Origin: a virus
Reading direction: 5' to 3' (one strand)
DNA length: 58,527 nt
IMG/VR virus record: IMGVR_UViG_3300021961_000112
Coordinates: 1 to 58,527 of that record
The notes beneath the pieces are model-generated. The model searched no databases. It was given only the letters and a program-made list of their open reading frames with translations, and was not told where the DNA came from. Both the position numbers and the translations under genes were made by a program. This document shows positions 32,257-55,975 of this stretch, piece after piece (position 1 is the stretch's first letter; each line of letters begins with the position of its first letter).

Positions 32257-32511
32257 TTAGGAATTTTTTGATTCATAAAGTGGTTCAGTGCCATATTCCC
32301 AATCATCATAGTCAGAATCATTTCTAATTTTGGCATGAATTTCGTTTTGATGATAAAAATCGTGTTTTTTGGGAGTTAGATCATCGTTTGCAATCTCACG
32401 AAGCATCTTTTGCTTATTAATTTGGTCTTCCCAACCATATTCACTACTCAAATATCGAGTTCCCCACTCATTTTTCATAAAATTTTGATCTTTATCAATT
32501 TTTTTGGACAT
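32257..32511 (-). CDS. Small charged protein upstream of gp25
   Basis: This 84-residue hydrophilic protein is rich in Lys, Asp, Glu and aromatic residues (WGTRYLSSEYGWEDQINKQ, DYDDWEYGTEP). It has no Cys pair, membrane segment or known motif. It overlaps the end of the upstream 222-residue gene by 17 nt and precedes gp25 by 27 nt, so it belongs to the baseplate operon. Similar short proteins occur at this place in cyanomyoviruses; I do not know a function. Confidence 0.7.
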   Translation of the reverse strand: MSKKIDKDQNFMKNEWGTRYLSSEYGWEDQINKQKMLREIANDDLTPKKHDFYHQNEIHAKIRNDSDYDDWEYGTEPLYESKNS

Positions 32512-33163
32512 TGTGCGCTCCTGATTCGTTAAAATCAGAACTTTTTACGGGGTTACTATCCCGGGTATTGATGTAAAACCCTTTTCTTAGATAGTCTTCG
32601 TCTTTAACAAAGGTATAATTTTCTATTTTTTCTATCTTATCACCTTTCCAAACAGGAATTGCAACAGTATTGCCATATCGAAAGTCTGGATTTTGGCGAA
32701 AATGTACTTCGATAAGTTTATTTCCGATAAATTCGCAGTTAATCCACTCATAATTCCCTTTCAAATTGTTTAAAGTTGAAGGAAATTCAATATCTCTATC
32801 AATCTTAGTCCATTTTTTCCATTTGTACAATGATTTATTATCATATCTATCACCCAAAACAACTAATTGTGCCTTTTTATCTCTAAAATCAACACTAATG
32901 TGTTCTCCATGAAATATTTCACACCAAAACTCTGATGGATGGAAATGATCGGTATATCTATCAATCCACTCTATACGAGAAAATCGTCCCATACCGAGTA
33001 AATTAATACTTGGTCGGACGATATAATGGTCTGGAGATGGTACAGAAGTCCCTACAGGACCACACAGATACCTTAGAGAGTGTGATAGAAAGAGTTTATT
33101 ATATACCCATAAATCCTCTATATGAATGGAACTCAATTCATATAGAGGATTGAAATGGTACAT
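32495..33163 (-). CDS. Conserved cyanophage hypothetical protein (MYHFNPL)
   Basis: This 222-residue protein begins MYHFNPLYELSSIHIEDLWV, continues YNKLFLS and contains CGPVGTSVPSPDHYIVRPSI and LGMGRFSRIEWI. I recognise the pattern from cyanomyovirus proteins located upstream of gp25. The IVRPxxNLLGMG segment recalls an ATP-grasp-like nucleotide-binding strand, but I cannot confirm a catalytic site. It is not hydrophobic and has no signal peptide. Confidence 0.78.
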   Translation of the reverse strand: MYHFNPLYELSSIHIEDLWVYNKLFLSHSLRYLCGPVGTSVPSPDHYIVRPSINLLGMGRFSRIEWIDRYTDHFHPSEFWCEIFHGEHISVDFRDKKAQLVVLGDRYDNKSLYKWKKWTKIDRDIEFPSTLNNLKGNYEWINCEFIGNKLIEVHFRQNPDFRYGNTVAIPVWKGDKIEKIENYTFVKDEDYLRKGFYINTRDSNPVKSSDFNESGAHNVQKN

Positions 33164-33193: not shown

Positions 33194-33370
33194 TTAAATT
33201 TTAGTTTCATAGTTTTGTCTTTCCATTGTATAGTTTCTTTGTATTTTAATTTGGGAATTGGTAAAAGTCCAACATTCACCTGTGTCATCTAAAAAGACAA
33301 CCCATTCTAAATTGTGTTCCTGAGAACGATCAATTACAAAAAAAGCCCAGCCAAGACCCTTTGGGGTAAT
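33194..33370 (-). CDS. Conserved small protein with non-canonical (ATT) start
   Basis: The frame encodes ITPKGLGWAFFVIDRSQEHN, then LEWVVFLDDTGECWTF, a sequence of cyanophage type (an acidic pair and aromatic-rich strands). No ATG, GTG or TTG lies between the upstream in-frame stop (33380-33382) and the conserved part. The only plausible initiation codon is ATT at 33370, giving 58 residues. The first third of the gene coincides with a strong terminator hairpin. It may use an AUU start (known from infC), be translated by coupling, or be a decaying gene that lost its start. Confidence 0.55.
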   Translation of the reverse strand: MTPKGLGWAFFVIDRSQEHNLEWVVFLDDTGECWTFTNSQIKIQRNYTMERQNYETKI

Positions 33371-33381
33371 GACTGGGCTTT
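33338..33381 (-). terminator. Rho-independent terminator overlapping the start of the next gene
   Basis: On the minus strand AAAGCCCAG pairs with CTGGGCTTT across a 26-nt loop that itself contains a CCCAAAGGG hairpin, and the stem is followed by seven T. It would end the transcripts that carry the glycosyltransferase and the two small genes downstream of it. The T-tract lies inside the following ATT-start reading frame. Confidence 0.75.
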
Positions 33382-33400
33382 ATGGATCTAATTGGAGCAT

Positions 33401-33541
33401 TTATTTTCCTTGACCTCTATACTTTTTCTTTCGTCCATTGCGAGAGGTTGCACTGAGTAGTGTGCGAGGAGAACGTCCTTGACGTGTTTTCTTAGGTGCT
33501 CCAGGTTCAAACACCGTCTTATTACTTCCACCTTTAGCCAT
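33401..33541 (-). CDS. Small basic protein MAKGGSNKTVFEPG
   Basis: This 46-residue, strongly basic protein begins MAKGGSNKTVFEPGAPKKTR, continues QGRSPRTLLS and ends KKKYRGQGK. I recognise it as a small conserved protein of T4-like cyanophages. A GGAGG ribosome site precedes its ATG, which overlaps the end of the preceding small gene. The charge suggests nucleic-acid or ribosome binding, but nothing more can be said. Confidence 0.82.
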   Translation of the reverse strand: MAKGGSNKTVFEPGAPKKTRQGRSPRTLLSATSRNGRKKKYRGQGK

Positions 33542-55967: not shown

Positions 55968-55975
55968 TATTTATA
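55968..55975 (-). promoter_or_regulatory. Second late promoter upstream of the homing endonuclease
   Basis: An exact TATAAATA overlaps the region just after the stop of the 79-residue gene. Downstream of it is CTGATGCCTGCGTTGGGTGC, and GTTGGGTGCA there is the inverse of TGCACCCAAC after the other promoter. Confidence 0.7.

Follow-up and report, generated by a model that had tools for sequence, protein, structure and literature searches.

How is a gene started whose frame is intact, offers no standard start codon and begins inside a strong hairpin? The question is raised by positions 33194 to 33381 of a 58,527-nt viral sequence (IMG/VR record IMGVR_UViG_3300021961_000112, positions 1 to 58,527), the whole of which we call the window. 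On the minus strand, the frame is open from 33381 to the TAA at 33196-33194, and its first ATG, GTG or TTG is codon 59. An earlier note on this DNA had described it as a frame without a standard start that offers only ATT as an initiator. The open frame is as described, but an in-frame ATG exists at 33400-33398. It abuts the TAA of the upstream gene (33403-33401), and a Shine-Dalgarno-like AAGGA (33407-33411, minus strand) can be read directly 6 nt before it.

From 33400 down, the codons are ATG CTC CAA TTA GAT CCA TAA AGC CCA GTC ATT ACC CCA AAG, followed by GGT CTT GGC TGG GCT TTT TTT GTA. The broken gene (33194-33400, minus strand) thus comprises the ATG, six codons in all for MLQLDP, an in-frame TAA (33382-33380) and an intact homologous frame that runs to the final TAA. 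The frame looks startless because codon 7 is TAA. In L003, L004 and most close relatives this codon is CAA (Gln); the gene therefore has a standard start and a nonsense codon. Close relatives initiate at the position of the window's ATG, with ATG or GTG (TTG in two), and several distant ones begin a few codons further upstream. Homologues starting at a downstream ATG would have spoken against a gene deprived of its start; their N-termini lie upstream instead. For this family, of the type MIQLNP..GWAFF..GECWTF, we find both homology to intact genes and a disabling change, as expected of a pseudogene. Altogether, the small gene looks to have been lost recently through a nonsense codon and not through a lost start. 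A more general caution follows: an apparently startless ORF can be a nonsense allele.

The stop is carried by one sequence type alone, as an error of sequencing or assembly would be. A pattern scan found the window-type stop in one other contig, IMGVR_UViG_3300021960_010404, which matches the window over 4602 columns except for a single gap and probably represents the same phage assembled separately. That this second IMG/VR contig agrees over its length, and that the neighbouring changes coherently strengthen the stem (see below), makes an artefact extremely unlikely.

It is also conceivable that the TAA is decoded, by suppression or by reassignment to Gln, and that the gene works as it does in the relatives. 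The stop does replace exactly a Gln codon, CAA. However, of the window's 22 open stretches exceeding 200 codons, 8 end in TAA. An Rfam scan of the window returned three tRNAs only, for Met, Arg and Ala, and no suppressor was found there. We therefore give decoding of the stop next to no credence.

We compiled 115 distinct haplotypes of the gene from loci with at least 200 nt upstream among the matches listed, a set enriched for the GWAFF type. Two of them are interrupted by a stop after codon 1 and before the hairpin region, the window's and that of a distant homologue, L058/L095 (IMGVR_UViG_3300019886_000016). The latter reads ATG ATT CTC TAG, with TAG at Gln4. Reassignment of TAG to Gln in that phage was considered and is not supported: over 18 kb, and for ORFs of 80 aa or more, ORF cover rises from 77% to no more than 80% when TAG is read through, and large genes do not become joined. 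We leave this TAG as a second natural nonsense allele. ARAGORN reports on the same contig (L095, 1446-1534) a tRNA with anticodon tta, which would read TAA.

When the window's gene was lost can be approached through its branch, taking L003 as sister (82% DNA identity over 3.2 kb) and L004 as outgroup. Within codons 9-58, this branch has 5 synonymous changes and none that alters an amino acid, small numbers both. The changed codons on it are 5 (Asn to Asp), 7 (Gln to stop) and 8 (Ile or Val to Ser); codon 8 differs among all three sequences and was scored as complex, since L003 and L004 disagree. Codons 35 and 45 were scored as complex too, yet are synonymous. The pattern in codons 9-58 suggests that they were constrained until recently, the change then being too young to show, or are constrained still. 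The unspoilt frame after the stop may be expressed by another route.

The earlier note had proposed one route, a form of control in which the terminator is read through and translation begins at AUU. Autoregulation through an AUU start is known from infC, with which the window shares only the presence of an ATT, here neither accompanied by a Shine-Dalgarno sequence nor placed at a homologous start. The intact frame and its purely synonymous changes would suit this proposal. Against it, the ATT (33368-33370, minus strand) is codon 11 of the homologous protein, 10 codons downstream of the start of close relatives, and lies in the 5' arm of the stem. It is preceded by TAAAGCCCAGTC, in which no Shine-Dalgarno sequence was seen by eye 5-10 nt upstream. 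Initiation there would drop residues 1-10 and with them most of the predicted first strand. Such a start is thus most improbable, and we retain the reading of a standard start followed by a nonsense codon.

In viral contigs, homologues of the small protein were found in 228 stretches, all in uncultivated contigs, and the best 80 were taken for analysis. They follow the pattern M[IL]QLNP[QPT]IPV.TPKG.GWAFF.IDRSQEHDLEWVVFLD..GECWTF and similar ones. Three sequences with fitting N-termini (L156, L189 and L210) fell outside the family filter; all three are intact in the N-terminal region. Scanning 30 viral members against Pfam, NCBIfam and PHROGs gave nothing better than E 0.037, and the PDB chain sequences held no match at E 1. 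The small protein's best viral hit is to an uncharacterized phage protein (E 8e-7).

The product had previously been described as a cyanophage-type protein. Its neighbourhood fits this: the upstream gene, of the phrog_516 family, has matches in 375 phage records, every one of which is named Synechococcus, Cyanophage, Prochlorococcus or Marine. The small protein itself, however, matches one of 50,697 phage records, a sewage phage. No homologue was found in the cyanophage records S-SCSM2R, S-RIM8 and DSL-LC02, in a search run without a positive control. In bacterial genomes 46 loci match, mostly in Alphaproteobacteria, and the family was seen in many alphaproteobacterial genomes (L294-L339), among them Azospirillum, Bradyrhizobium and Erythrobacteraceae. 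Inspecting the neighbours of three bacterial homologues by eye, in ORF lists, suggested no function. As to the phages, we infer a T4-like group of freshwater or estuarine cyanophages.

An AlphaFold2 model made with 30 family members reaches a mean pLDDT of 86, with strands at residues 2-12, 15-25, 30-37 and 43-47. By fold comparison with VIA-align, the best Z is 6.5 over 51 residues (rmsd 1.7), a Z below 8 being one that may reflect a common arrangement only; the best Foldseek hit in the PDB has E 0.1. The predicted fold is like that of SH3/Tudor/KOW-like small beta barrels, with no sequence match behind the likeness, and an assignment to them is suggestive only. Among the top 20 Foldseek hits are domains of polymerase-associated proteins, namely Mfd, CarD, the Tudor domain of PcrA/UvrD and an RfaH-bound elongation complex, none of them significant, together with many unrelated Tudor and myosin matches. 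From these hits one might imagine a polymerase-binding factor of the SH3/Tudor/KOW type that acts on the terminator in its own gene, so that readthrough and product would form one loop; the window's stop would then have cut an autogenous circuit, with the stronger terminator as compensation. We consider this highly improbable.

The earlier note was right that a hairpin covers the beginning of the frame. The predicted intrinsic terminator (33338-33381, minus strand) consists of a stem at 33381-33342 with an internal 2x2 loop and of seven T at 33344-33338, and it lies inside codons 7-21. It begins about 19 nt past the phrog_516 stop and reaches the end of its T-run 62 nt from the ATG's first base, and the nonsense TAA overlaps the base of its stem. 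Its folding energy is -25 to -26.5 kcal/mol. When both strands of the window were scanned for stems of 18-44 nt with at least 6 T of 8, this was the only site at -14 kcal/mol or better; six dinucleotide shuffles, one strand each, gave 0, 0, 0, 1, 0 and 1 such sites, the best at -18.5. A simple pattern scan of the window did not list the hairpin. The G+C-rich stem is directly followed by the T-run on the same strand, and compensatory change is found in relatives, mostly at one pair.

Most close relatives carry a hairpin and a T-run within the first ~21 codons of the intact gene. Because these intact relatives have the hairpin in the same codons, the terminator is older than the loss of the gene. 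The idea that the gene recently lost its start when the terminator formed is therefore half right: the gene does look recently lost, but by a nonsense codon, and the terminator was already there, its stem only strengthened.

Is the hairpin more than a by-product of the codons? In 21 distinct sequences with phrog_516 adjacent, the fold energy lies at z -2.3 to -6.8 relative to 1000 synonymous recodings. With no phrog_516 nearby, 19 of 24 distinct sequences are above z -2. The other five (L061, L067, L068, L078 and L079) have z -2.6 to -4.2 and no T-run, and the AT-rich codon table used for recoding is ill-suited to them. For an 18-pair stem aligned over 25 haplotypes, 88% of cells are paired against 84.6% after shuffling, and the covariation score is 0.198 against 0.126; in neither case did any of 500 shuffles do as well. 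Three pairs are changed on both sides, which is not unusual, as 83 of 500 shuffles reach this number.

The chief covarying pair joins base 1 of the second codon after Pro9 with base 3 of the seventh codon after Pro9. It runs through AU, UA, GU, UG and CG, and the residues encoded there go together: Ile with Asn, Phe and Leu with Lys, Val with Asn. The two bases match in 66 of 84 haplotypes, compared with a mean of 34 and a maximum of 50 in 5000 permutations. C opposite A accounts for 14 of the 18 unpaired exceptions, and in Leu-Ser and Leu-Pro examples a register shifted by one base pairs that part of the stem instead. On a tree of the gene's remainder, parsimony counts 25 and 21 changes at the two bases, and of the 15 pairs that six variable N-terminal positions can form, that of the corresponding residues ranks first in excess mutual information. 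An alternative build is seen in L045-L050, where a flipped loop makes TPKG into TFWG with a 13-pair stem; L225, L186 and L168 have other 5' arms. The hairpin thus appears to be under selection within the coding sequence, with amino-acid changes following the stem. It would be a natural case of protein residues that covary to keep an RNA stem.

The upstream gene to which this terminator may belong, a cyanophage protein of the phrog_516 family whose function is unknown, occupies 33401-33541 on the minus strand (stop TAA 33403-33401; PHROGs hit 4.5e-16), the start at 33541 having been picked from the alignment. In the set of 115 haplotypes, with a hairpin cut-off of -10 kcal/mol or better and a T-run of at least 6 of 8, phrog_516 ends within 20 nt of the small gene's start in 72, and all 72 have the hairpin and the T-run; the haplotypes are related, and 72/72 does not stand for 72 independent events. 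Where phrog_516 lies farther upstream the count is 5 of 7 haplotypes, and where none is found within 240 nt it is still 9 of 36. Contig L126, outside this set with its requirement of 200 nt upstream, has phrog_516 upstream, a T-run broken by one C and no fixed-register hairpin.

We also sought phrog_516 loci independently of the small gene and retained 80 of 347, those among the matches listed, 77 of them distinct; cut-offs here were laxer (-8 kcal/mol, 5 T of 8). The small gene is present at two of the 77, one being the window's sequence type, and in both the hairpin lies inside it. Where the small gene is absent, 39 of 75 loci have a hairpin and T-run no more than 110 nt from the stop. Five shuffles of these 75 gave 3 to 8 such loci each, and the interval from 495 to 610 nt downstream gave 3 of 74. 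Among the 29 loci with 87% or more identity to the window's phrog_516 protein over the matched stretch, a free-standing terminator is found in 21 and is absent in 8. In the lake-water Synechococcus phage DSL-LC02, the free-standing terminator leads straight into the next gene's ATG. Out of ten cyanophage records examined after phrog_516, two (L090 and L092) have a hairpin and T-run within 61 nt of the stop; the other eight have none that near, five of them with candidates farther on. The near terminator is therefore typical of the window's closer relatives rather than of cyanophages at large.

The tie to phrog_516, together with the free-standing terminators where the small gene is absent, points to the embedded hairpin as the terminator of the upstream unit: most likely, it takes the place of that unit's terminator and is written into the coding sequence of the next gene. 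By all the evidence of the sequence, a single stretch of DNA would then serve twice, ending one transcription unit and encoding the N-terminus of the following gene's product.

Hairpins near gene starts can also be processing sites, and the element could in principle be a determinant of mRNA processing or stability, such as an RNase site or a guard of the 3' end, rather than a terminator. What argues for termination is the T-run at fixed spacing, the two Phe codons before it being TTT TTT in 82 of 87 haplotypes; this conservation is partly a matter of AT-rich codon usage, TTT making up 83% of Phe codons in five window genes. Free-standing hairpins with T-runs at the same spot, where the gene is absent, also point away from a processing role. 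We hold such a role to be unlikely and keep to the reading of a terminator.

The small gene lies directly behind phrog_516, and its first codons would double as the intrinsic terminator of the upstream unit. A polymerase leaving phrog_516 would make the hairpin and the U-tract before a ribosome on the small gene catches up. Many transcripts would be expected to end at the U-tract, and the intact small gene of the relatives would be expressed from readthrough. This order of events has a precedent in the excerpted text of Li et al. (PMC4824070), where in E. coli a terminator placed 30 bp after the AUG loses only about 10% of its efficiency to translation, the ribosome lagging behind. According to the same excerpts, a ribosome represses a terminator lying a few bp past a stop codon, efficiency falling from about 90% to under 10% when the stop is 5 bp before the terminator (PMC4824070). 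With a hairpin starting ~19 nt past the phrog_516 stop and a T-run ending 62 nt into the gene, termination is therefore expected to work. The locus seems a clean place to study how translation and termination coexist within a gene's first 100 bp.

Attenuators with leader peptides are familiar from trp. MLQLDP could be read as such a peptide, a ribosome on the stem base setting the readthrough into phrog_3577, gp25 and gp6. The overlap of the stop with the base of the stem is in keeping with this, as is the repression of terminators by stops a few nt before them in the excerpted text of PMC4824070; a ribosome paused at the codon-7 stop could indeed weaken termination. In opposition, translation has little effect on terminators placed early in a coding region, according to those same excerpts (PMC4824070), and the window-type stop is known from one other, near-identical contig only. 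Both the trp attenuator and that of pyrBI, as the latter is described in the excerpts of PMC4824070, have a short ORF beside a terminator. The phage locus, unlike them, shows no pausing logic, and its short ORF arose from a nonsense codon in one lineage. Attenuation is thus quite unlikely here, and we return to simple loss of the gene.

After that loss, the hairpin of the window seems to have improved. Codon 8, AGC (Ser, 33377-33379, minus strand), has a G that pairs with a position forming a T-C mismatch in relatives with a GCT arm. The second base of this codon is T, for a hydrophobic residue, in 114 of 115 haplotypes and G in the window alone. For hairpin-bearing haplotypes whose Ala codon is GCT, the count is 42 with T facing C against the window alone with G. 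Not every relative has the mismatch: in those with GCA at the Ala codon, the T can pair with A in another register. The G of codon 8 and a synonymous change in codon 17 jointly stabilize the 40-nt stem from -14.9 to -26.5 kcal/mol, with codon 8 contributing about 6 kcal/mol of the gain. In the window lineage, the stop at codon 7 would inactivate the gene while the terminator is kept, a stronger stem being gained once the constraint from the protein is gone. The simplest account is that loss of the protein freed the position and that the terminator then improved, in this presumed order. The conflict between the two uses of the sequence would thus be visible in the window: the protein is lost, and a position mismatched in 42 hairpin-bearing haplotypes with the same arm is now paired. 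Altogether, we think it likely that the gene was recently lost by nonsense mutation and that the embedded terminator of the phrog_516 unit was kept and strengthened.

The nearest likeness is an engineered one. In the portions of Li et al. that describe it, tR2 was placed in the first 100 bp of a coding region in E. coli, likewise giving a hairpin and U-tract tens of nt after the AUG (PMC4824070). Unlike that construct as so described, the phage arrangement occurs in nature, is kept across a gene family and shows up in the covariation of amino acids (PMC4824070). RNA 3' ends inside ORFs of E. coli, some with intrinsic-terminator scores, are reported in the excerpts of PMC7815308; there they concern regulation or small RNAs of the host gene, whereas the phage element tracks the upstream phrog_516. 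Internal terminators of clostridial ABC transporter operons set gene ratios, by the partial description in PMC9045158, and readthrough would likewise set the downstream-to-upstream ratio here. The phage terminator, for its part, lies inside a coding sequence. Among the listed titles and abstract openings of open-licence PMC papers, we found no terminator embedded in a phage gene start.

Downstream of the broken gene lies phrog_3577 (32495-33163, minus strand), and the next two ORFs are gp25 and gp6 by synteny with Synechococcus phages. The start of phrog_3577 has a structure of its own, a perfect 16-bp inverted repeat with an 8-nt loop and no T-run, in its first codons (33112-33151, minus strand); the first 72 nt fold at -27.9 kcal/mol, z -6.3 relative to synonymous recodings. 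Such a structure is no general feature: among 13 distinct sequences tested, the window (z -6.3) and L003 (z -4.7) are the only outliers, followed by one at z -2.3.

The motif NATAAATA, which we take to be that of T4-type late promoters, occurs 18 times on the minus strand of the window and twice on the plus strand. On the minus strand, 11 of the 18 are within 60 nt of an ORF of at least 45 aa (e.g. at 55975, 54496, 32258 and 8018). None stands directly before the small gene; the nearest one listed ahead of an ORF is AATAAATA at 32258, before gp25.

Finally, two Synechococcus phages have a hairpin with a T-rich tail about 92 nt into a gene downstream of phrog_516 (L085, 1746-1790; L086, 1919-1962). 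This gene is annotated as purM in one and as hypothetical in the other, with similar coding sequence. Perhaps these hairpins are another terminator placed in a coding region.
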